DNA of 28,078 bases, taken from positions 1 to 28,078 of the IMG/VR virus record IMGVR_UViG_3300000116_000153. One strand, written 5' to 3'. Below are positions 579-26,083 of the stretch, piece by piece. This stretch comes from a virus. The notes under the pieces were generated by a model, which was given only the letters and a program-made list of their open reading frames with translations, made no database searches and was not told the DNA's origin. Made by a program: the position numbers and the translations under genes. Each line of letters opens with the position of its first letter. Positions within the stretch are counted from its first letter, which is position 1.

Positions 579-962
579 TTAAAAAACATCACCTGCAAGA
601 ATGTTATTGATTTCCTTTTCAATACTCTCATCTGTAACATCCAAATTACCTCGCATATCAGCCTTCCATACCTTTTTCTTCGAACCATTGTGATATAAAA
701 CGATAGATGGAAAACTCCTCAATCTCAATTTTCTTACAATGCCCGAGGCCTCTTCCGATTTAACTTCGATAACCTTTGTGTTTTTTAGTCCTTTAACCTT
801 ACCTAAAACTCCATCATCATATGCAGAGTTTTTAGCACTCCATTCTGCAGTAAATTTAACCACCACAAAACCTTTACTCACTTCTTTTTTAAAATTACCA
901 TCATTAATCTGACCTAATAAAAAACTCGTTGATAGTAAAAAGTATAATATATAATTCTTCAT
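579..962 (-). CDS. Exported thioredoxin-fold protein lacking the catalytic cysteines
   Basis: The protein has 127 aa. Residues 1-17 form a signal peptide ending Leu-Leu-Gly with Gln18 next, so the product is probably periplasmic. The body resembles thioredoxin: a strand (FVVVKFTAEW, 32-41), the active-site position, a second strand (VIEVKSEE), and a cis-proline segment (RSFPSIVLYHNG, 82-93). Where thioredoxin has Trp-Cys-x-x-Cys, this protein reads Trp-Ser-Ala-Lys-Asn (41-45), and it contains no cysteine at all. It therefore cannot perform thiol-disulfide exchange and is more likely a binding or scaffold version of the fold. It starts 2 nt after the preceding gene's stop. The fold assignment is fairly secure; the role is unknown. 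Confidence 0.7.
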   Translation of the reverse strand: MKNYILYFLLSTSFLLGQINDGNFKKEVSKGFVVVKFTAEWSAKNSAYDDGVLGKVKGLKNTKVIEVKSEEASGIVRKLRLRSFPSIVLYHNGSKKKVWKADMRGNLDVTDESIEKEINNILAGDVF

Positions 963-1532: not shown

Positions 1533-2810
1533 CTACAAACCTAAAAACTGATAATTAAGTCCTACTTTTAATTCGTATGCCGGTCTTTCCCAATAATTTA
1601 AATACTTACCTTCTGAATAAAAACCTAAATTCTCTTTAAGTTTAAATCCAATTATTGCACCTAAATCATAATCCAACCATTGACCAATACCAGCATCTTC
1701 AAATACAAAATCTTGTGGTTCTAAACCATCTTCATCATGAGATTGCCATCTTACAGCATTATGATAAGAGTATTTATCCAAACCATAATGATAAGGATAC
1801 AAACTACCCCACACGTGAATCCAAAAGTTTTCACTATATCTGTAATAATCAACACCGAGTGATAATGATATTTCTCGTTGGTTTCCTAATGCCCTTGTTT
1901 TATCCTCAAACCAATTTTCTAATAGTCTCGGAAAATGATATTGGTAAAACTCTCTATCACTCATTGCCATCAACTTACCATCTTCATTAAACCATCTATA
2001 ATCTTGATTTACATATCCAATAAGTTGTCCGTTACCTACATCATATAGTGCTAATCCATCGTCAAGACCATCTCCAATACCATCACCATTGGTATCTACT
2101 GCATATCCTCTGTCATCTATACCAAAGGCATCTGATGCGAACTCCCACCACGATCCTAAATACCAAGATGAATCAACTACTGTTGGTGCAAACCCATATG
2201 CAGGATGTGTTCTACCTCCGACACCAATAGAAAAGTTTAGACTTGCTTCATCACTTGTAAACTCTTTTCTAAATCTAATATCACCTTGACCATATTGAAT
2301 ATCTTCTAATTCAAAGTTTGCATATTTTACTTTTGCAATAAACAAATCACCGAGATATCTTAAAAAGTATTCTTGTGATTTAAATTTCTCATCCCATCTT
2401 TGGTTTTCAGAATATTTAATTAAATACTCCCAACCCCTTACTTTACCAATTGTTGCTGCTTCATTAAAATTTGTTTCAGTTCCCTTATACCAATCACCAC
2501 CAACTCCTGCATTTTTAACACCTCGTTTTGGTTCGTATTGAAATCTACCGACCTTTCGTATTCCAAAAGACAAATCAAAATCAGGTTTTAATTCCATATC
2601 CTCTCTTACAATACTTACCTCACCATTTAAGTAGTTTTCTATTCCGGTAACAGGATCTATAACTGCTAATCTATACCTATCCTCTTCAAATTTTGGTGAC
2701 GTGAGATTAAACCCACCATAAACAGTAGAATACTTGAAGAAGTCTACTACAAAATTTTGACTATGTGTAAAGGATGTTATCAATATCCCAATAATTACTT
2801 TTTTTAACAT
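1533..2810 (-). CDS. Predicted outer-membrane beta-barrel protein with a calcium-loop insert
   Basis: The protein has 425 aa, starts at ATG 2810 after GGAGAATTAA, and has a signal peptide (1-17) with Gln18 next. The mature part is rich in alternating aromatic/polar strands (for example residues 143-170, 190-200, 315-335 and 385-425) and ends in strand-like Leu-Asn-Tyr-Gln-Phe-Leu-Gly-Leu, consistent with an outer-membrane barrel. Residues 239-250 (D-T-N-G-D-G-I-G-D-G-L-D) form a classic Asp-rich calcium loop, probably in a large extracellular excursion (about 205-280). No specific family was recognised. It sits among other exported proteins. A porin, receptor mimic or receptor-masking protein are all possible. 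Confidence 0.6.
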   Translation of the reverse strand: MLKKVIIGILITSFTHSQNFVVDFFKYSTVYGGFNLTSPKFEEDRYRLAVIDPVTGIENYLNGEVSIVREDMELKPDFDLSFGIRKVGRFQYEPKRGVKNAGVGGDWYKGTETNFNEAATIGKVRGWEYLIKYSENQRWDEKFKSQEYFLRYLGDLFIAKVKYANFELEDIQYGQGDIRFRKEFTSDEASLNFSIGVGGRTHPAYGFAPTVVDSSWYLGSWWEFASDAFGIDDRGYAVDTNGDGIGDGLDDGLALYDVGNGQLIGYVNQDYRWFNEDGKLMAMSDREFYQYHFPRLLENWFEDKTRALGNQREISLSLGVDYYRYSENFWIHVWGSLYPYHYGLDKYSYHNAVRWQSHDEDGLEPQDFVFEDAGIGQWLDYDLGAIIGFKLKENLGFYSEGKYLNYWERPAYELKVGLNYQFLGL

Positions 2811-2828: not shown

Positions 2829-3563
2829 TTATTTCCAATTTGCCAAATTTATTAAATTATAACTGAGTCCGAATCCCCAAACTGGACTTGTTAATCCTGT
2901 AACTTTATCATAAGTTATACCAAAAATAGGTCCTAATGATATTTGATTTCTTGGCATTTTTAATTTTACAAGTGCACTTTCACTACCTTTTATTCGTAAT
3001 CCACCTACTTCCATATCATTTATTATTGCCTGAAATGAATTTTTACTTAATCTTTTTATAGTAGGTTCTGCAAGTGCAATTGAACCATCATATTCCAATA
3101 TTGTTTTATACTCTTTTAGTTTATGACCTTCAACTCTGAATCCACTCCTACCAAATACTCTAACATAAGCGTCTTGTGTTCCAAACTCTTGTTCAAATGG
3201 TATAGTTCCTTGTAAATAGGCTGACGATAAAGAAGTTTGAAAACTATCAATTTGAGTTTTTATCATTAGCAACTCTTTTCGTAATACTTTTTTTAGGGAG
3301 TCTTTTTCTGCGATTCTGTCTTTGTTTTCCTTGTTTAAATTATTTATTTCTAAATCTTTTTTACTATTCAACTTATACAAGGAATCCACCTCACCATATA
3401 AGGTATCTATTTTAGTTTTATTGATTGTTATAAGTTCATCTTGTCGTGTCGAATCACCCTTTAGAAAATTCATTTCTTTTTTTGCATAGTAATATCGAGT
3501 TGTAACCAATCCCACAACGAAGATAATATTTATTATAACACCAATAACTGTATCTTTATTCAT
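2829..3563 (-). CDS. Membrane-anchored coiled-coil protein with C-terminal beta domain; spanin-like candidate
   Basis: The protein has 244 aa. Its ATG overlaps the upstream stop in a TAATG junction. Residues 5-27 form an uncleaved N-terminal membrane anchor, 30-110 a long heptad-rich coiled coil (I, L and K/E rich), and 115-205 a beta-rich domain. The C-terminus (about 208-240) has paired strands of the type I-S-L-G-P-I-F-G...W-G-F-G-L-S-Y-N-L. An inner-membrane anchor, a periplasm-spanning coiled coil and a C-terminal beta/outer-membrane-like end recall proteins of Bacteroidota phages proposed as Rz-like spanins. A holin-like gene lies about 2.3 kb downstream, which fits. A structural tether in the same envelope cluster is the alternative. 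Confidence 0.45.
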   Translation of the reverse strand: MNKDTVIGVIINIIFVVGLVTTRYYYAKKEMNFLKGDSTRQDELITINKTKIDTLYGEVDSLYKLNSKKDLEINNLNKENKDRIAEKDSLKKVLRKELLMIKTQIDSFQTSLSSAYLQGTIPFEQEFGTQDAYVRVFGRSGFRVEGHKLKEYKTILEYDGSIALAEPTIKRLSKNSFQAIINDMEVGGLRIKGSESALVKLKMPRNQISLGPIFGITYDKVTGLTSPVWGFGLSYNLINLANWK

Positions 3564-4111: not shown

Positions 4112-5104
4112 CTAAAAGTATGAACCAATCATCACACTATAAGTTTTATTTCTAATTCCATAATCATTTACAACAGTATTATATCCCATTGATAAACCAA
4201 TATTGAACGTAAATGCCTTACCGAATTTCCAATCAAATGAAACCGTAGGAAACATAATGAAAGGACTTCGTAAGAATAAATATCTATTATCTTCAGGAAG
4301 TCCTTCATAATATCGTAATAATACATATGCTACATAGTTAGAAAAAGTGATTTCATAGTTCATAAATTCTATTGGGAATCTAATCCCATACACGGAAGTT
4401 AAGTTTGCAAAATCAAAACCACCAACATTACCATACGTTCCTGTCAATACAAACGCTTCTGATGGTGTTTTTGTTAGTGCCTTAGAATACGAACTCGATA
4501 CTAACCAATCCCAACCCTCAAATGTTTGATATATTAACCAAGTTCCATTATATAACTTGTTTTGACTTTTGTTCAATAGTTTAAATGATTGACCAAATGT
4601 AAGGGACGCCTTTTTAAAATCATCTGTAAAATTAAAATTACCATCATATTGACTATTACCATCAAAGCTCTCATTAGTATAGACACTATTATATGATGTA
4701 ACCCACTGTATAGTATCACTCCGAGTGGTAGTTCTGATTGCATAGTTTACTTGCGTTGGTTCAACTGAAATGTCATCTGATTTACCAAATTGTTCGGATA
4801 TGTTACTTGCCAATAATGAACCCAATAACTCTTCTGCAACTCGAACAGCACAAGGAAATAAATCTTCGAAATCTTGATAGACTCCTTGTGCCCATTTTTC
4901 TAATTCTCCATCAAAAACCTGTTCGAATGTAAAAAACTTTGTTCTGTTATAGAAAGTAACTCTGAACCCATCTTCACCATCTTGTGATACCTTGTATGAA
5001 TTAGCCACACTTAGTTGACTACACGGATCTACATATGAATAAAAATATGATTGTGCATAAACTCCACTACAAAATAAAAATATTTTTATTATAGTTTTTA
5101 ACAT
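4112..5104 (-). CDS. Predicted outer-membrane protein, C-terminal beta-barrel
   Basis: The protein has 330 aa with signal peptide 1-17 (...Gly-Val-Tyr-Ala) and Gln18 next. The first half (18-130) is a mixed domain with two Cys residues (28 and 84) that could pair in the periplasm. The second half (about 150-330) has repeated amphipathic strands (for example ASLTFGQSFKLL, TFNIGLSMGYN) and ends Ser-Val-Met-Ile-Gly-Ser-Tyr-Phe. A terminal aromatic residue of this kind is the usual barrel-assembly signal. The gene follows the CsgG-like lipoprotein by 7 nt, with only a weak ribosome binding site, so coupled translation is likely. No named family was recognised. Confidence 0.55.
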   Translation of the reverse strand: MLKTIIKIFLFCSGVYAQSYFYSYVDPCSQLSVANSYKVSQDGEDGFRVTFYNRTKFFTFEQVFDGELEKWAQGVYQDFEDLFPCAVRVAEELLGSLLASNISEQFGKSDDISVEPTQVNYAIRTTTRSDTIQWVTSYNSVYTNESFDGNSQYDGNFNFTDDFKKASLTFGQSFKLLNKSQNKLYNGTWLIYQTFEGWDWLVSSSYSKALTKTPSEAFVLTGTYGNVGGFDFANLTSVYGIRFPIEFMNYEITFSNYVAYVLLRYYEGLPEDNRYLFLRSPFIMFPTVSFDWKFGKAFTFNIGLSMGYNTVVNDYGIRNKTYSVMIGSYF

Positions 5105-5112
5105 TCATTTCT

Positions 5113-5754
5113 TTACCAACCTCGTCTGTCAATTGCCTTGATAACATTGACTACTGCTGTTTCCATAGCCTTATTACCAGCAGAACTCAACGAACTCTGA
5201 TTCCATTCCATATTTGGATTGGCTAAGAATCCTTGACCGATGGTTTTAGCCCTTCCTTGTCCACTTCCTACTACATATTGAGTGTTTTCTAAGTTTACTA
5301 ATTTTACTTGTAAACCTATTATAGTTTCATTTACCATCTGAACCTTACCACCTTTAACATCCTCACTTGCATTTACTGCAAAATCATAAATGGTAACATA
5401 TCCCCAATATTTAGCCTTATCAATCTTTGCGTTATTTGCCTTTAAATCATTCAACATCATTAATTGATTATCTCTGTCAGCTTCTATCATATTAAACCTA
5501 CCAACATAAGATACAACATTTTCAAGTTCTTGTTTTAAACCAAATGCAACCCTTTTTTCACCAAGTTCAGGATATCGTTCTTCGAGTTCTTTATTAAATT
5601 TTAACTCAACGAGCTTTAACCCATCTACTTTGGTAATCACTACTTCGTCTAACGACTTCTGTTTCTCATACTCACCTACATATTGTTCGGTGGAAACTGA
5701 AGCGGCACATCCCATAAAAACCATTAATGTTAGTATTGAGAATATCTTATTCAC
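5113..5754 (-). CDS. Lipoprotein with CsgG-like domain
   Basis: The protein has 213 aa and starts at a GTG codon at 5754, preceded by AGGAGAAGGTA. A short lipoprotein signal ends Val-Phe-Met-Gly-Cys, with Cys16 as the lipidation site. The mature region has the CsgG-type order: a helix (VAFGLKQELENVVSYV), 'GRFNMIEADRDN', a strand after an Ala-Lys-Tyr-Trp-Gly-Tyr-Val segment, then 'IIGLQVKLVNLENTQYVVGS' and a C-terminal Ala-rich helix ending near Ala-Ile-Asp-Arg. CsgG itself forms the curli secretion pore, but this fold is shared by many outer-membrane lipoproteins (LPP20/LpoB-like). No CsgE, CsgF or curli subunit is visible, so a curli role is not supported. It may be the outer-leaflet or periplasmic partner of the neighbouring barrel. 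Confidence 0.5.
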   Translation of the reverse strand: MNKIFSILTLMVFMGCAASVSTEQYVGEYEKQKSLDEVVITKVDGLKLVELKFNKELEERYPELGEKRVAFGLKQELENVVSYVGRFNMIEADRDNQLMMLNDLKANNAKIDKAKYWGYVTIYDFAVNASEDVKGGKVQMVNETIIGLQVKLVNLENTQYVVGSGQGRAKTIGQGFLANPNMEWNQSSLSSAGNKAMETAVVNVIKAIDRRGW

Positions 5755-5767
5755 TACCTTCTCCTTT

Positions 5768-6169
5768 TTATTTAAAGTCCGCTAACGGATCCTTTAATAG
5801 TTTCTCCAATCGTTTAATCTCATTCTGTAATTTATCAATCTTATTTTCTAAGTTGATAATATCACCATCGTAAGATTTAACTTTTGGGTTCTTTAATTTA
5901 TCAACCTTATCACGTAAGTATTTTAGTTCTTCGTCATACTTTAAAAATATCACATCATAAGAATTGAATTTTTCGGTTACGAGTTCAATATCACTTGCAT
6001 CAGCAAAACCAGTAACTACTTCTTCCAACCCATCAATACGACCAGTAAAACTATACCAACCAGCAATGACGGTAGAAAGAAAAGTAACAATAGCAATAAT
6101 ATTATTAATTGATACCTTAAACCCCTTCCCTTTAACTTCTTCAATAGCTTGTTCTATATCTTTTGCCAT
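5768..6169 (-). CDS. Small inner-membrane coiled-coil protein
   Basis: The protein has 133 aa. The start is placed at ATG 6169 (MAKDIEQ) because AGGAGAATAAA sits immediately before it; an in-frame ATG at 6190 lacks such a site. Residues 1-18 are charged and cytoplasmic, about 20-42 are a membrane helix (IIAIVTFLSTVIAGWYSF), and 48-128 are a charged coiled coil likely to lie in the periplasm. The membrane helix and the segment after it resemble those of the MshEN-domain protein (965-1522), which suggests a shared anchor module. It could be spanin-like or a structural tether. No enzymatic motif was seen. Confidence 0.55.
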   Translation of the reverse strand: MAKDIEQAIEEVKGKGFKVSINNIIAIVTFLSTVIAGWYSFTGRIDGLEEVVTGFADASDIELVTEKFNSYDVIFLKYDEELKYLRDKVDKLKNPKVKSYDGDIINLENKIDKLQNEIKRLEKLLKDPLADFK

Positions 6170-6183
6170 TTTATTCTCCTTAA

Positions 6184-6246
6184 TTAACAATCACAGCAAT
6201 TGCAATTATTACATTCTTCACATTTACAGTTTTTACATTTACACAT
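6184..6246 (-). CDS. 20-residue cysteine-rich peptide, metallothionein-like
   Basis: A very short frame reads MCKCKNCKCEECNNCNCCDC and then TAA. Nine of 20 residues are Cys (positions 2, 4, 7, 9, 12, 15, 17, 18, 20), arranged as repeated Cys-x-Cys and Cys-x2-Cys with Lys, Asn, Asp and Glu between, a pattern typical of metal-thiolate peptides. Two features support translation. A GGAGA site lies seven bases upstream, and the ATG overlaps the stop of the PorV-like gene as TAATG, the junction used at five other gene pairs in this window. The next gene begins 14 nt after its stop, behind its own AGGAGA. There is no signal peptide, so it would be cytoplasmic. Function is inferred from composition only. 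Confidence 0.6.
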   Translation of the reverse strand: MCKCKNCKCEECNNCNCCDC

Positions 6247-7130
6247 TATTTCATCTCCATTGTTATTGTTAGTTTAAAAGTTCTACTCAAGGGTAACGTT
6301 TCCATATCATACATATATGGAACATAACTACTTGAAAATATATATTTATCATATAATATATCAAATCCAATAGTTGGATATATTAATCTATGTTCACTAT
6401 CCATATAGTATCCCACCTTTTGAAAAAATACATTTTTGTAATTAAATGTTCCACCGAAAGCTATTGTATTGTATTTTTTAAACACATTTGCCTGACCGAA
6501 CAGATTAAATTCTCTATATGGATATGTTAATGCAACTTCAAGTGACATTGGTATTTCTGCTCTATCTATTTCTACCTTCATAGGTGCCCCAAAGTTTTTT
6601 ATTGCTACATCTAAATCGAGTTCTTTATAAACATTATTAAAGTAAGTTCCAACACCAAATACAAGTCCATGTGCACTTTCAATATGTAAATTGTGTCTAA
6701 TGTATTTCATCTCGAATCCAATCCAAGCATTTTCTAATTTTTTACTTACCGAATCTTTTGTATAATATAAATTACCTGGTGTCCAATTTACTTCTATTAT
6801 CGTAGATGTCGGTTCAAATATTAACTCCGTTACTCCTGTTTCATCTGTTTGTCTTTGGTTACCATATTTAAATGACATTATATTCAATCCAAATGAACGA
6901 TTGTCAATAGTCAAATAATTATATCCCATATCATCAGTAATGTTTCTTAACCACTTTACCTTTGTCAAACTAAATCCATCACTACCCAAAAGGTTACGGG
7001 CCGGATTATTATTAGGTAGATTAACATTACCAATACCACTTGTAATGGCACTCGGAGTTATTGTCAATATATTATTCAATTGACCAAATAATGAACTAAT
7101 AAAAAATAATGATGTTAATACTCTTTTCAT
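6246..7130 (-). CDS. PorV/PorQ-like outer-membrane beta-barrel protein
   Basis: The protein has 294 aa from ATG 7130. That start is preferred over 7151 because AAAGGA precedes it, the signal peptide begins there, and it overlaps the preceding microprotein stop as ATGA. The signal peptide ends Ser-Leu-Phe-Gly, then Gln. The mature N-terminus (ITPSAITSGIGNV...NNPARNL) has the order of the UPF0164/PorV/PorQ barrels: a Ser-Gly-x-Gly turn, then Asn-Pro-Ala. About a dozen beta strands follow to the C-terminus. PorV and PorQ are T9SS outer-membrane partners, PorV being the shuttle that binds cargo sorting domains. The gene follows a T9SS cargo gene with only a microprotein between them, so a cargo/partner pair is likely but unproven. 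Confidence 0.55.
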   Translation of the reverse strand: MKRVLTSLFFISSLFGQLNNILTITPSAITSGIGNVNLPNNNPARNLLGSDGFSLTKVKWLRNITDDMGYNYLTIDNRSFGLNIMSFKYGNQRQTDETGVTELIFEPTSTIIEVNWTPGNLYYTKDSVSKKLENAWIGFEMKYIRHNLHIESAHGLVFGVGTYFNNVYKELDLDVAIKNFGAPMKVEIDRAEIPMSLEVALTYPYREFNLFGQANVFKKYNTIAFGGTFNYKNVFFQKVGYYMDSEHRLIYPTIGFDILYDKYIFSSSYVPYMYDMETLPLSRTFKLTITMEMK

Positions 7131-7225
7131 TTTTTCCTTTTTGATTGCCAAACTTGTAACATTGTTAATCCTCTCATTATCAAAGTTACTACTATTAACG
7201 ATACTATAAAAATAATAAAATCCAT
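7127..7225 (-). CDS. 32-residue single-pass membrane microprotein
   Basis: A short frame begins at ATG 7225, five bases after AGGAGA, and ends with a TGA overlapping the next gene's ATG (ATGA). The peptide starts MDFIIFIVSLIVVTLIMRG, a single hydrophobic helix over residues 2-17, and ends basic (QSKRKK), so the C-terminus should be cytoplasmic. The two coupled junctions and the good ribosome binding site support real translation. It sits between a T9SS cargo gene and a PorV-like barrel gene, so it may be a small accessory factor, or it may serve mainly to couple translation. Confidence 0.55.
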   Translation of the reverse strand: MDFIIFIVSLIVVTLIMRGLTMLQVWQSKRKK

Positions 7226-7235
7226 TTTACTCTCC

Positions 7236-9917
7236 TTATTTTATTACGGTAAATTTACTTGAACGGATTTTCTTTTCTGTCTGTAAAACAAATATATAAA
7301 CACCTGGTTCTAAACTTTTCCAACCTTGCTTAACCGACACTTCAGGTAAGAAATCTGCTGGTTGATTTGTAAATGCAAATGTATGTAAACCCTCGACAAC
7401 AATCTCGTCAAATATAGTCCCCATATACTGACCAACAGAATTTAATATATATACTTTTGCATTTTCTGTTTGGTCAAGATAAAACTGAAATGTCGTAAAA
7501 TCTCTAAATGGGTTAGGGTAGTTGTAAGTTATTTCATCATTGGTCGGTTCACCACCACCAAATGCCCAATACTTGTTCCACACCAAGACTTGACCATCCA
7601 TTCTTCTCATCAGTAAATCATCACCACTTTGATTACCAGCTGCATTTTTACCGACAAATCTTATCGGTGCCTCTGTCCATTCGGTAGGTGGAAATTCAGC
7701 TTCAAACAATAAAGATAATCCAACCATATCATTTTCAATCCAATATGTATCTGATGCGTTACCAGGTGAATAATCTAATGCTCCAAATGATACTCGTCTC
7801 CACCCTTTACTTGGTTCATGAACACGAGTGTAACTCATCCAAGGTCCAGGTAAAGTTCCTGTTTTCATATCTAAAAATTTTAATTCTTGTTCATTAAACT
7901 CAACTTGAAATTCAAATCCAGCTACTTTATTTCCTTCTTTTGGACTAATCATCAACGGAACTTCTATCTGATTACCTGATTGAACTCTGACGGTAGAATC
8001 AGATGGAAAAGATAATTCTACATCAAAATGATTCGTAGCAGTTTTTGCTGCCCAAGTATTAGGTGGGTCCCCCTCACCCCATCTATAAAAAGTTGAACCA
8101 TTTACATTAATATATCCATCTTGACTTTCAGGTGTAGGGACATCAAAATCAGTTCCAACTGAAAAATCAGTTTCTTTAACTTTAGTTCCTGAGACATTTA
8201 TATCACCTGTGAAGAAATATGATAAACTATCAAGTGTAGTATCAGGATTAACTTCACTCATCCACTCTGAACTAGCCTCACCAATAGAAATACCAATCGT
8301 GTCTAATCCTGTTTGGATATCATTCATTAAAGGATTTATAACTTCTACAAAACCAAAGTTTAATCCTGCATTTTCTTCATCTAAATCATCATCACGAAAC
8401 ACCGTGAATTCATATTTTTGATTTCCCCAATCTTCATACCAAACATATGGAAAGGGTTGATTGTTTTCTCTTAGTGTATCAATGGTTGACCAATTCTCAT
8501 ATGAATTACCATTTAGGTGAGTGTAGTTATCAAATATACCAGATACATATGCCCACAAAAAGTAGGTGTCATTTAATTGAAATAAATCATCACCATCAAC
8601 ATCACCAATAAGGTATCCAACAGGATTCAATGTATCTACACCAAGAACCGAATAAAACTTATTCGATTGAAAGTTAAATGATGCTATGGCGTCATTGATA
8701 TTAGTAATTCCATATCTGTCTAATTCTAATTGATTATGATTTCCAATATCATCAGCATCATCAGGTGGATAAAAAGATAAACGATAGTAATTGTTTCTCG
8801 GTAATTGAATATTAAAATATCCCCTATCGTCAACATAAGTAGAATCATAGTAACTTATACCAAGAAATCCTTCACCGGGAACAGGTTGAAGTGCACTCGT
8901 TCCTTGTTCGTTATACCAAACGGTAGATATATGGTCACCAACAACATCATCACTTAAATCTTCATCTGAATTACCACTAACATTATCTACGGTTTCTAAA
9001 TTATACCAATTTTCGTTGTTATCAGGATTAGTTTGGTCTAATTCAAACTTTATTTTCCAATATGGATATGTGTTATCATTGTTTATTCCGTTTCTACCAA
9101 TATATCTAAAGTATCCTTCTATATCCATTAACTTTGGGTGTAATGTGATATCTCCACGGGCACCACCATCGTAGGTCTCCTCCGTTCCATAGTTTCCATC
9201 TATGTAAACCTTAAAATCTAAAAGGTAACCATCAGAAACATAAGTATAATATCCAGCAACTCCATTATAAAAAGTAGGAATTCTAAAGGATTGTGGTTGA
9301 AAATTATCTACCACATCATTTATTTTTAAATGTATTTTTAGTAGTTCGGTTTGAACATTATTACCATTACCAAATGTAAAGCTGTTGCCATTATGAGAAA
9401 CCATCGTAATCCTTAACCAATCATAACGAGTGTTACCTTCTGATATTTCTTGATTGGCAGTTTGTAATGAATCCACATATCCAACATTCTCATACCAAAC
9501 TACTTCGTATGAATAATCAGCGTTTGCCGTTGAATCACCCTCAGTAAATCCACTTAAATATGAACCTTTCTGTATACGAGTTGAATCATGTCCCCAAGTA
9601 ATTAAATCATTATCAAATACTAAATCAATTCTGAATGTAGTTATGTCTGCATCCTTATCATCAAGTGTAACCGCAAGAGTCATTACTGAGTCTCTCCACG
9701 CATCAAAGTTATTATTGTAAAGGGCAACACCAGATGCTCCGTTAGCAGTGCTCATGCCCGTAGTATCATCGGCTAAATATCCTCTCAAGTTAAAGGTAGT
9801 CGCCTCTCTCCACCAAGTTTTTGGTGTATTATACTCTCTCGATTGCATAATTCTTATAATAGGTTGTTGAGCGTAACTCAAACCGACCATCATAAGTGCA
9901 ATGAAAAACCTATACAT
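7236..9917 (-). CDS. Large secreted protein with T9SS type A sorting domain and cohesin/dockerin-like modules
   Basis: The protein has 893 aa and starts at ATG 9917 after GAGGAGAACTT. Residues 1-16 are a signal peptide (...Leu-Ser-Tyr-Ala, then Gln17). Two cohesin-like beta sandwiches can be seen, at about 80-200 and 640-780 (VRVQSGNQIEVPLMIS...GFEFQVEF). Asp-rich dockerin-like loops lie at 438-460 (GDVDGDDLFQLND) and about 571-590 (GDINVSGTKV). The C-terminus (about 798-893) is a typical T9SS type A sorting domain: Tyr-Pro-Asn-Pro-Phe at 800-804, Val-Gly-Gln in the middle, Pro-Gly-Val-Tyr near 871, and a basic strand ending Phe-Thr-Val-Ile-Lys. It should be exported by the host's T9SS to the cell surface or outside. 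It lies directly downstream of virion genes and could be a host-surface modifier or adhesin. Confidence 0.8.
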   Translation of the reverse strand: MYRFFIALMMVGLSYAQQPIIRIMQSREYNTPKTWWREATTFNLRGYLADDTTGMSTANGASGVALYNNNFDAWRDSVMTLAVTLDDKDADITTFRIDLVFDNDLITWGHDSTRIQKGSYLSGFTEGDSTANADYSYEVVWYENVGYVDSLQTANQEISEGNTRYDWLRITMVSHNGNSFTFGNGNNVQTELLKIHLKINDVVDNFQPQSFRIPTFYNGVAGYYTYVSDGYLLDFKVYIDGNYGTEETYDGGARGDITLHPKLMDIEGYFRYIGRNGINNDNTYPYWKIKFELDQTNPDNNENWYNLETVDNVSGNSDEDLSDDVVGDHISTVWYNEQGTSALQPVPGEGFLGISYYDSTYVDDRGYFNIQLPRNNYYRLSFYPPDDADDIGNHNQLELDRYGITNINDAIASFNFQSNKFYSVLGVDTLNPVGYLIGDVDGDDLFQLNDTYFLWAYVSGIFDNYTHLNGNSYENWSTIDTLRENNQPFPYVWYEDWGNQKYEFTVFRDDDLDEENAGLNFGFVEVINPLMNDIQTGLDTIGISIGEASSEWMSEVNPDTTLDSLSYFFTGDINVSGTKVKETDFSVGTDFDVPTPESQDGYINVNGSTFYRWGEGDPPNTWAAKTATNHFDVELSFPSDSTVRVQSGNQIEVPLMISPKEGNKVAGFEFQVEFNEQELKFLDMKTGTLPGPWMSYTRVHEPSKGWRRVSFGALDYSPGNASDTYWIENDMVGLSLLFEAEFPPTEWTEAPIRFVGKNAAGNQSGDDLLMRRMDGQVLVWNKYWAFGGGEPTNDEITYNYPNPFRDFTTFQFYLDQTENAKVYILNSVGQYMGTIFDEIVVEGLHTFAFTNQPADFLPEVSVKQGWKSLEPGVYIFVLQTEKKIRSSKFTVIK

Positions 9918-19196: not shown

Positions 19197-19525
19197 AACT
19201 CACTAAACTCTCTATCTAATACATTATTCCAAATTAAATCTGTTTTATAAAGTGTAGATTTATTATCTATTTTTATCTGTTGGTCAATGTCGTCTAAATT
19301 ACTTTCTTCATCAAAAGGATTTTCAAATGCTAAAAATACCCCAGCATCATTTCTTAATGGTTCAACATCTGGTTGTATTAATTCATTATCATTCTCATCA
19401 ATAATGGTAACACTACCTTGTAATTTTCTTGCTTGGTCTAATTTATTCAGATATAGAACTCTATCTTGTTCTTGTAATTTTTGATAGTATTCACTTTTCT
19501 GTAATTCTTCTTTTGTTAAAGGCAT
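19193..19525 (-). CDS. Small acidic hypothetical protein of the baseplate operon
   Basis: The protein has 110 aa. It starts in a TAATG overlap with the ferredoxin gene and ends in an ATGA overlap with the 734-aa gene. The N-terminal half ([20 protein letters not shown]) is a charged helix. The C-terminal half is acidic with aromatic residues and a Trp (LIWNNVLDREF). No signal, membrane segment or known motif is present. A small assembly or connector protein is plausible from its position, but no function can be assigned. Confidence 0.55.
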   Translation of the reverse strand: MPLTKEELQKSEYYQKLQEQDRVLYLNKLDQARKLQGSVTIIDENDNELIQPDVEPLRNDAGVFLAFENPFDEESNLDDIDQQIKIDNKSTLYKTDLIWNNVLDREFSEL

Positions 19526-19827
19526 TAGTCCATCTCCAAACCAAAAAATTCATAATTCTTTTTAATATAATGATTCCATTCTGCTGGAACTTCTTCTTCT
19601 TCAAATATTGCTTCTACCGGACATTCAGGTTCACATGCTCCACAATCAATACACTCTTCAGGATTTATGTAAAGTGAATCAGTTTCTTTTGGTATAAATC
19701 CATCAACTTTGGCTTCTTCACCACTACCTTCTCTATCATCCGGTCCGTGAATACAATCTACAGGACATACCTCTACACATGCTGTATCACAAGTTCCCAC
19801 ACAAGGTTCAGCTATAATATATGACAT
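19525..19827 (-). CDS. Dicluster ferredoxin, 7Fe/8Fe type (4Fe-4S)
   Basis: The protein has 100 aa. The start is at ATG 19827, one base after the upstream stop (TAAAATG); longer in-frame starts would lie within the previous gene. It is a small cytoplasmic electron carrier. Cluster cysteines are C9, C13, C17, C21-Pro, C25 and, in the second motif, C59, C62, C65, C69-Pro ([12 protein letters not shown]). The C9-x7-C17-x3-C21 spacing is that of 7Fe ferredoxins (3Fe-4S plus 4Fe-4S) of the Thermus/FdxA kind. The extra C13 could allow a second 4Fe-4S cluster. Residues 28-52 are an insertion relative to short members. It sits between two virion genes and is co-translated with the next one. The family is secure; why a tail operon carries it is unknown. 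Confidence 0.88.
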
Positions 19828-24521: not shown

Positions 24522-26083
24522 TATTTCTCTACTCGTGTTAATATATCACAAATCTGTGCTCTTATAGTTTCAACTTGTGTTGTCTTAAATGCATCTACTA
24601 ATGCCTGATTAGGTGGCCCACCACTTATAGGACCACTCGGTCCTGCTCCTGTTGGTATCCCAGCGAATGACATGACCGTATCAATTAATGCTTCTTGTGA
24701 TGCCAACATTAAATCTAATATCTCTGTTAATTTTTCTCCAAATACTAAATGTTGTTGTTTAACATCATCACGACCTTTAACATAAATAACTGCCTCATCA
24801 TTACTTCCACCAATTTTAAAGTAACTTCCGTTGTCGGTGTATAATCCTGCACAATCATCAAGATGAACATTAGCACCTTTACAACTCTCTAAGTGTGCCA
24901 TATCATCAAGTTTTAAAAAAGATGGACATTCACTTGAAAGGTATATTTCATCAGCTGCTTCACCATCTGCACCTGCACCTAAATCGAGTCTTGAATTACC
25001 TGGTGTAACTAAACTTATCCCACCTGGTATCATACCCATAGAAGTTGCTCCTCCTGAGTTCATCTGTAACCCATTATCTGCATCTACCGAGAATGATTTC
25101 TTCGTTGAGAATCCAATACCATCTGCAGAAAAACCAAGTATCTTTCCTTTTTTTGTGTTAAATGTTATTCTATCAGAATTAATAGTAATCTGTTTTCCAC
25201 CTTCTGTTGGTTGGTCATCAGATTGTAATGATGTCATATATGAGTGGTCACTAGCATTTGTATTTTTAATATCGAGTTTTACAGATTGGTCTGTCGTCAT
25301 CCATATAGAACTACCATCTGCATTTATATCTTCTTTTACTGGTTTATATCGAATAGATAAATCACTTAACTCGTTACCCTTTCCAAAATCAGAAGCATCA
25401 TTAAGTTGACCTGCCCTAAATAATATGTTAGGTGAATCTTGTTTGGAATCACCATCTTCATGTGCATCAGGAACTATGTTACTACCAAATCTTATGGAAT
25501 GTCCCCATCTACCTTGTAAAAGATAATCACCTTCATATGGTTGAAGTCTTTTTATTTTAGGATCGAATCCTTGTTCTGTTATTTCAAAATGTTCATAAAT
25601 ATAATCTTCTTCTCTGACCTCATCTGGTCTCGCACCACTCTTACCTGGTCGAACATTTGAATTTGTGCTTGTTAATAAATTAATAATTGTTGTATAGTAT
25701 GGAACATCCATATAGTCCATAACAACTATATATTCCCCCTTTACGGGTAGTTGATGTTCATATGGGTGTAATGGGGTGAAAATCCTAAGAGGACCAGTAA
25801 CAGGTTTATTCCGTTCAGATTCAACCTTTCTAGCCTTAACACATCCCATTAAAGGATAGATGGGATTACCATTATTGTCTTTCGGAAGTTTCTCTTCCGT
25901 ATCATAAACAAACATAACTTCGGCAGGTTCGAATTCATAAAACACACTATCGTTAGGTGAAGTCTGAACCTGATTAATTATCTGTTTAACTTTTGCTGCT
26001 GTTGGCACACCACCATCGTTGGATACTTGTTTTTTACTTTTACCCTTTGGTGTTAGTGCAGGATTACTCCCAAAATATGCCAT
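24521..26083 (-). CDS. Baseplate hub/spike protein, gp5-like (OB fold plus beta-helix), no lysozyme domain
   Basis: The protein has 520 aa with ATG at 26083 in a TAATG junction. Residues 50-135 form an OB-type barrel (GCVKARKV...KGEYIVVMDY...PYYTTIIN). Residues 186-202 (DYLLQGRWGHSIRFGSN) are the conserved strand pair linking to the spike. Residues about 245-400 show repeated short strands (ITINSDRITFNTKKGKILGF) expected of the triple-stranded beta-helix. The last ~90 residues are helical with a Gly/Pro-rich insertion (about 475-495). In T4, gp5 also carries a lysozyme domain between the OB fold and the helix. Here the region after the OB fold is too short for one and no catalytic motif is seen. 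Confidence 0.75.
   Translation of the reverse strand: MAYFGSNPALTPKGKSKKQVSNDGGVPTAAKVKQIINQVQTSPNDSVFYEFEPAEVMFVYDTEEKLPKDNNGNPIYPLMGCVKARKVESERNKPVTGPLRIFTPLHPYEHQLPVKGEYIVVMDYMDVPYYTTIINLLTSTNSNVRPGKSGARPDEVREEDYIYEHFEITEQGFDPKIKRLQPYEGDYLLQGRWGHSIRFGSNIVPDAHEDGDSKQDSPNILFRAGQLNDASDFGKGNELSDLSIRYKPVKEDINADGSSIWMTTDQSVKLDIKNTNASDHSYMTSLQSDDQPTEGGKQITINSDRITFNTKKGKILGFSADGIGFSTKKSFSVDADNGLQMNSGGATSMGMIPGGISLVTPGNSRLDLGAGADGEAADEIYLSSECPSFLKLDDMAHLESCKGANVHLDDCAGLYTDNGSYFKIGGSNDEAVIYVKGRDDVKQQHLVFGEKLTEILDLMLASQEALIDTVMSFAGIPTGAGPSGPISGGPPNQALVDAFKTTQVETIRAQICDILTRVEK

Follow-up and report, generated by a model that had tools for sequence, protein, structure and literature searches.

A cysteine-rich micropeptide gene of phages with metallothionein-like composition

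Between a gene for an outer-membrane barrel and a gene for a transmembrane (TM) coiled-coil protein, a record of a marine bacterial virus carries an open reading frame of 20 codons, nine of which specify cysteine. Is so short a frame a gene, and what could its product do for a phage? The window, by which we mean the whole stretch of DNA analyzed here, is a 28-kb virus record (IMGVR_UViG_3300000116_000153; 28,078 nucleotides).

The micropeptide gene and its neighborhood

The frame (positions 6184 to 6246, minus strand) encodes the 20-aa peptide MCKCKNCKCEECNNCNCCDC, in which nine cysteines occupy positions 2, 4, 7, 9, 12, 15, 17, 18, and 20 of the translation. This gives the spacing CxC-x2-CxC-x2-C-x2-CxCC-x-C. 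Apart from Cys and Met1, the peptide is composed of K, N, E, and D alone, and it lacks a signal peptide. A preliminary description of this DNA had reported a 20-residue frame with nine cysteines, a clean TAA stop codon, and no hydrophobic residues except Met1, and all of these are borne out by the sequence. It had also placed a GGAGA site seven bases upstream and a TAATG overlap at the start, with similar overlaps at five other gene pairs, and each of these could be located. The Shine-Dalgarno-like GGAGA lies at positions 6254 to 6258 (minus strand), in the last codons of the barrel gene and 7 nt before the ATG. The TAA of the barrel gene (6248 to 6246) ends in the same A that opens the ATG of the peptide, and stop and start codons also share a base at the window gene pairs at 26083, 24521, 19525, 16992, and 3563. 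A second Shine-Dalgarno-like site, AAGGAG (6176 to 6181, minus strand), is found between the stop codon of the peptide and the start of the next gene (ATG at 6169). This AAGGAG of the TM gene travels on the micropeptide cassette, whereas relatives without the peptide use a GGAG in the tail of the barrel gene.

The peptide is 45% Cys, and in the remaining proteins of the window the Cys share is 0.37% (33 of 8,958 residues). Among 60 first-order Markov copies of the window, no ORF of 11 to 41 aa reached 40% Cys, the highest Cys share at these lengths being 29%. The micropeptide gene is a real, separately initiated phage gene. Its product would be translated from a cluster of envelope protein genes through coupling to the preceding barrel gene.

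The barrel gene (6246 to 7130, minus strand) encodes a PorV/PorQ-like protein of 294 aa with a signal peptide (NCBIfam NF033709; E = 3e-18, below the curated cutoff), and the best fold matches of its AlphaFold model are the type IX secretion system (T9SS) translocon chains 8gl6_F and 6h3i_F. The next gene of the operon (5768 to 6169, minus strand) encodes a protein with one predicted TM segment and a coiled coil, which is 65 to 93% identical in relatives and matches no Pfam family at its cutoff. A lipoprotein-like gene (5113 to 5754, minus strand) is 74 to 87% identical in relatives and has no NCBIfam or Pfam match. Upstream in the same cluster, an 893-aa protein (7236 to 9917, minus strand) contains a T9SS type A sorting domain (TIGR04183, above the curated cutoff). 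Neither a metal transporter nor a metal-responsive regulator was seen near the micropeptide gene.

A separate observation is that the phage cluster pairs, on the minus strand, the PorV/PorQ-like barrel (6246 to 7130) with the T9SS sorting-domain protein (7236 to 9917). The virus has secretion cargo of its own and, likely, a shuttle barrel. On account of the T9SS-like barrel and the sorting domain, the host probably belongs to the Bacteroidota or their relatives and has a T9SS. The same region could hold another small gene: a possible 32-aa single-TM micropeptide, MDFIIFIVSLIVVTLIMRGLTMLQVWQSKRKK, is encoded at 7127 to 7225 (minus strand), with a good Shine-Dalgarno-like sequence, aaggagag, and a 4-nt overlap with the start of the barrel gene.

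Conservation, selection, and exchange among relatives

Relatives were gathered through the neighboring genes (barrel, TM coiled-coil, and lipoprotein genes) and never through the peptide, and removal of duplicates left 31 distinct junctions, counting the window. A Cys-rich micropeptide is present at exactly this site in 20 of the 31 distinct contigs, a count that involves no selection for Cys because the contigs were found through neighboring genes only. The versions at this site are 11 to 20 aa long and 29 to 55% Cys, examples being MCECKECKCGSTCECKCCEC, MKTNCKCDCGCECGCCN, MRDCECMCCGDGCICDSCC, and MNCDCCSCNCC. The ATG, which in the window begins with the final base of the barrel stop codon, lies 1 nt past the stop in the other carriers, and a GGAG is found in the last codons of the barrel gene in nearly all relatives. 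Among the relatives, both the Cys pattern and the GGAG before it are strongly conserved, their conservation having been proposed as a check, and no broken copy was seen, frameshifts or stops having been named as evidence that would speak against the gene.

The remaining 11 of the 31 junctions lack the micropeptide cleanly. In 10 of them, the TM gene opens 1 nt past the barrel stop codon and relies on the same GGAG; the other (L065) keeps a spacer of 17 nt that includes a second Shine-Dalgarno-like site and resembles a deletion scar. No junction among the 31 has a spacer longer than these 17 nt without a Cys-rich peptide in it. Loss of cysteines had likewise been named as adverse evidence, and on this point the findings touch the claim weakly, as one version (L085) has Tyr at the place of Cys4 and, as stated, 11 junctions are without the gene. 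For both reasons the gene is optional, and its absence from 11 of 31 relatives indicates that it is dispensable, which argues against an essential role.

Eight versions can be aligned over the nine Cys columns, and in these the pairwise comparisons give 35 synonymous (TGT/TGC) and 0 nonsynonymous differences at the Cys columns, whereas the other columns have a pN of 0.47 and a pS of 0.34. Although the pairwise counts depend on one another and the eight versions are the ones that could be aligned, the contrast is extreme. The synonymous-rate comparison suggested in the preliminary description thus came out in favor of the gene. Residues other than Cys vary freely yet remain polar: hydrophobic residues account for 10 of the 181 non-Cys residues of the 20 peptides, compared with 39% in window proteins (P ~6e-26). 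Judged from these codon and residue comparisons, selection acts on the Cys array and not on the remaining residues, which should make the versions interchangeable. Since only the Cys array and the polarity are kept, the thiols, more than any specific contact with a protein, should account for the function.

The distribution of the gene is consistent with such interchange. On the tree of the TM protein, its presence and absence need ~7 changes, at least 4 of which are forced by well-supported branches. Contigs L071 and L104 share 93% identity in the TM gene (first 200 nt) and 86% identity at the 3' end of the barrel gene, and their peptides are dissimilar (MCECTNCSCDKCECTCCDC versus MKKTKCQCCEGCTCDPCNC); L082 and L105 provide another nearly identical neighborhood with different Cys peptides. 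Identical peptides are found in L095 and L100, the barrel 3' ends of which are only 76% identical; this version (MKNYQDNCECGCCN) has four Cys only, which is few for a cluster. Cys peptides also occupy alternative sites. In L087 and L089, which have no peptide at this junction, MIYACDNPNCECENCQCENCQCENCNC or MKNVCDNPNCECENCTCENCNC is encoded directly after the second barrel-like gene, the homologue of the window gene for a secreted barrel-like protein of 330 aa (4112 to 5104, minus strand). In L187/L189, contigs related to the window across many structural genes, MCNCKDCKCEESCECKCCVC is encoded directly before the third barrel-like gene, the homologue of the window gene for a secreted barrel-like protein of 425 aa (1533 to 2810, minus strand). 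The micropeptide gene is an optional cassette that is swapped and re-inserted among related phages in many dissimilar versions, all of them rich in Cys.

At the junction that holds its Cys peptide, L119 also has an extra small ORF (3431 to 3550), MKCLKCKHTWKRTKWTEYVSFLSRCVKCSSIWILRY, with two CxxC pairs as in a zinc ribbon.

Cysteine peptides in other phage lineages and in cellular genomes

The Cys pattern M-C.C..C.C-x2-3-C-x1-2-C.CC.C-stop matched in 56 viral contigs, 17 times at this site and 39 times elsewhere; as these matches were preselected for Cys, only their context and number count as evidence. Records of up to 246 kb have a single such peptide each. Many of the 20-aa peptides of other lineages are followed directly by a Pyr_redox_2 gene, and a holin-like gene related to positions 115 to 540 of the window occurs in 13 of the contigs of this type. 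For one of these contigs (L160), the nearest cultured match, by its terminase, is Flavobacterium phage immuto, in which no such peptide was found within the 24 kb examined.

A looser Cys pattern recovered a shorter class, consisting of MCKCKDCKCNPCKCN and its variants. In 13 contigs, an IscU gene (TIGR01999, above its cutoff) is overlapped at its 3' end by the gene for the shorter peptide, which in 7 more lies 342 to 395 nt after IscU, the IscU-linked contigs including some near-duplicates. The terminase region of one contig with the shorter class (L017) is related to Pelagibacter phages. Cys-rich micropeptide genes thus recur beside Fe-S and redox genes, and with such neighbors in other lineages a role in metal or Fe-S handling is likelier than one specific to the envelope. 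That the sister class is coupled to IscU suggests that infection calls for a supply of Fe-S or metal.

The contigs in which an IscU-type Fe-S scaffold gene overlaps the gene for a 15- to 19-aa Cys peptide are L013 to L015, L019, L029, L034, and L035 and, in addition, L037, L045, L046, L050, L052, and L054.

Across ~85,000 cellular species, the pattern matched seven times. Six of the matches were poly-Cys or low-complexity frames and were discarded, and one (L211), a full-length match, is genuine. It encodes MCECDKCECTESCDCKCCDC (L211, 2512 to 2574, plus strand) amid ordinary bacterial genes of a 1.6-Mb Cytophagales metagenome-assembled genome, and in this order the peptide is present in 1 of 390 genomes. 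The L211 peptide may be a version belonging to the host or may be left over from a phage.

Taking these occurrences together, we see about even odds that several unrelated phage lineages took up, and exchange, metallothionein-like peptides of 11 to 27 aa, usually one per genome, as a general metal or Fe-S function in infection, and that such peptides escape gene callers and hardly occur in cellular genomes. Gene callers that apply length cutoffs overlook a conserved class of phage genes.

Possible functions of the micropeptide

We consider it probable, at roughly two chances in three (~0.68), that the phage gene encodes a cytosolic, thiol-rich micropeptide working like a minimal metallothionein. 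The metallothionein-like composition proposed in the preliminary description fits both in residues and in spacing. The window peptide shows the metallothionein traits of small size with a very high Cys content (45%) in CxC, CxxC, and CC arrangements and of few or no aromatic or hydrophobic residues (none besides Met1). Over the 20 peptides, the spacings total 77 CxC, 24 CxxC, and 23 CC, and relative to 2,000 within-peptide shuffles CxC is in excess and CC in deficit. Metallothioneins hold several d10 metal ions as thiolate clusters, and the nine cysteines, in CxC, CxxC, and CC, would surround a single small cluster of soft metal ions such as Zn(II) or Cu(I), the peptide folding in the cytosol around this small metal-thiolate cluster. 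During infection, the peptide would most likely serve to buffer, hold, or pass on metal; it may deliver metal to phage or host proteins or give protection from metal or oxidants.

The peptide had no match in PHROGs, Pfam, NCBIfam, or PDB sequences, the query being so short that significance is hardly reachable, and for the same reason a 20-aa query can hardly reach significance with Pfam Metallothio_Pro, which it did not match. In a tblastn search of cultured phages, the peptide and the barrel were unmatched, and low-complexity filtering may hide the peptide. No report of metallothionein-like micropeptides of phages was found in the literature searched, mostly outside subscription journals.

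The metallothioneins SmtA and BmtA (Pfam Metallothio_Pro) are ~55 aa long and have a zinc-finger-like part and His ligands. The phage peptides share with them the bacterial setting, the richness in Cys, and the CxC motifs but are far shorter. The 15-aa sister class, with CxCxxCxCxPCxC, presumably resembles the start of SmtA-type proteins. The copper metallothioneins of Neurospora crassa and Agaricus bisporus (metallothionein family 8), with 26 aa and 7 Cys, were once considered the shortest, and their Cys pattern is X2-CXC-X5-CXC-X3-CXC-X2-C-X3 (PMC4755600). Like these, the phage peptide is very short, single-domain, and rich in Cys, with CxC motifs; unlike these, it is encoded by a phage, has no more than 20 aa, and holds 9 Cys separated by K, E, N, and D, and homology is not claimed. 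Membership in fungal family 8 was considered and rejected, as the window peptide has a different Cys spacing. On the best reading, the phage gene would encode a minimal metallothionein-like peptide, which at 20 aa is shorter than the 26-aa fungal proteins. If it binds metal, it is among the smallest genetically encoded metallothionein-like molecules, phages carry metal-handling parts of their own, and metal control in infection is directly testable with a 20-aa synthetic peptide.

A narrower task, helping to assemble Fe-S or other metalloproteins, e.g., by handing metal to the phage ferredoxin instead of acting as a general buffer, seems doubtful to us. In other phage contigs, translation of short sister Cys peptides is coupled to IscU, which indirectly and to some degree favors the part in ferredoxin maturation suggested in the preliminary description, and the window does encode an FdxA-like ferredoxin with nine Cys (19525 to 19827, minus strand). 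However, no IscU was found in the window, and the peptide of the window lineage is encoded among envelope genes, ~13 kb from the ferredoxin gene and at a variable site.

Somewhat less probable is a thiol or redox peptide that would serve as a reducible thiol store or as a disulfide partner for redox or envelope proteins, with no metal cluster. The window has a cluster of secreted proteins and a gene for a thioredoxin-fold protein with a signal peptide (579 to 962, minus strand; Pfam, E = 6e-7), and in other phages a Pyr_redox_2 gene adjoins the peptide gene. The micropeptide, however, has no signal peptide, Cys is absent from the thioredoxin-fold protein and nearly absent from the other proteins of the cluster, and CxC spacing is typical of metal-thiolate clusters and not of CxxC redox sites.

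The frame could also act as a Cys-codon leader at which ribosomes stall when cysteine is short, altering expression of the next gene, but this is distinctly unlikely. A short ORF packed with Cys codons does lie just upstream of a gene in a phage otherwise almost without Cys, and in other phages a hairpin and a terminator-like stem follow the peptide gene. The mechanism is known from mycobacteria, where polycysteine short ORFs are described as Cys-responsive attenuators (Canestrari et al. 2020, as cited in PMC13236596). As far as that citation describes them, the phage ORF resembles them in being short, rich in Cys codons, and upstream of another gene and differs from them in avoiding CC, staying polar, lacking RNA structure, and lying inside a gene cluster. 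A leader would favor runs of Cys codons, whereas CC is rarer and CxC commoner than in the 2,000 shuffles, and the residues between the Cys are polar with few exceptions. No structure is evident in the leader RNA (z = 0.65), and no terminator-like site is found on this strand near the gene. Relatives without the ORF retain the same downstream gene, which encodes the TM coiled-coil protein without a family above cutoff and is no known Cys metabolism gene. In the other phages, a conserved GTATATT, maybe a promoter, follows the terminator-like stems, and this arrangement suggests the end of a transcription unit. With CxC favored, CC avoided, and no RNA structure, a Cys attenuator is unlikely, and an RNA leader finds no support in the RNA structure, terminator, or Cys spacing results.

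It is hardly credible that the frame is a meaningless spacer or chance ORF merely keeping translation of the barrel and TM genes coupled: the gene is optional, and in its absence the TM gene follows the barrel stop codon at a distance of 1 nt, but all such spacers except the 17-nt scar of L065 encode a Cys-rich peptide, the Cys columns hold zero nonsynonymous differences, the peptide recurs in unrelated contexts, and a chance ORF is rejected on the basis of the shuffled windows and the fixed-site conservation.

In addition to the metallothionein-like peptide itself, an RNA feature was noted at 24 phage loci: a small hairpin whose loop, AUUCAUAGC, is invariant and whose paired stem occurs in six different forms, ~11 to 20 nt after the stop codon of the peptide gene. 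Rfam gave no match for the four of the 24 loci that were submitted, and the hairpin is possibly a new RNA element. The loci are L153, L155, L158, L160, L164, L168, L169, L172 to L177, L182, L183, L188, L191, L192, L195, L196, L201, L204, L206, and L207, and at most of them the hairpin is accompanied by a T-rich terminator-like stretch and then the GTATATT motif.
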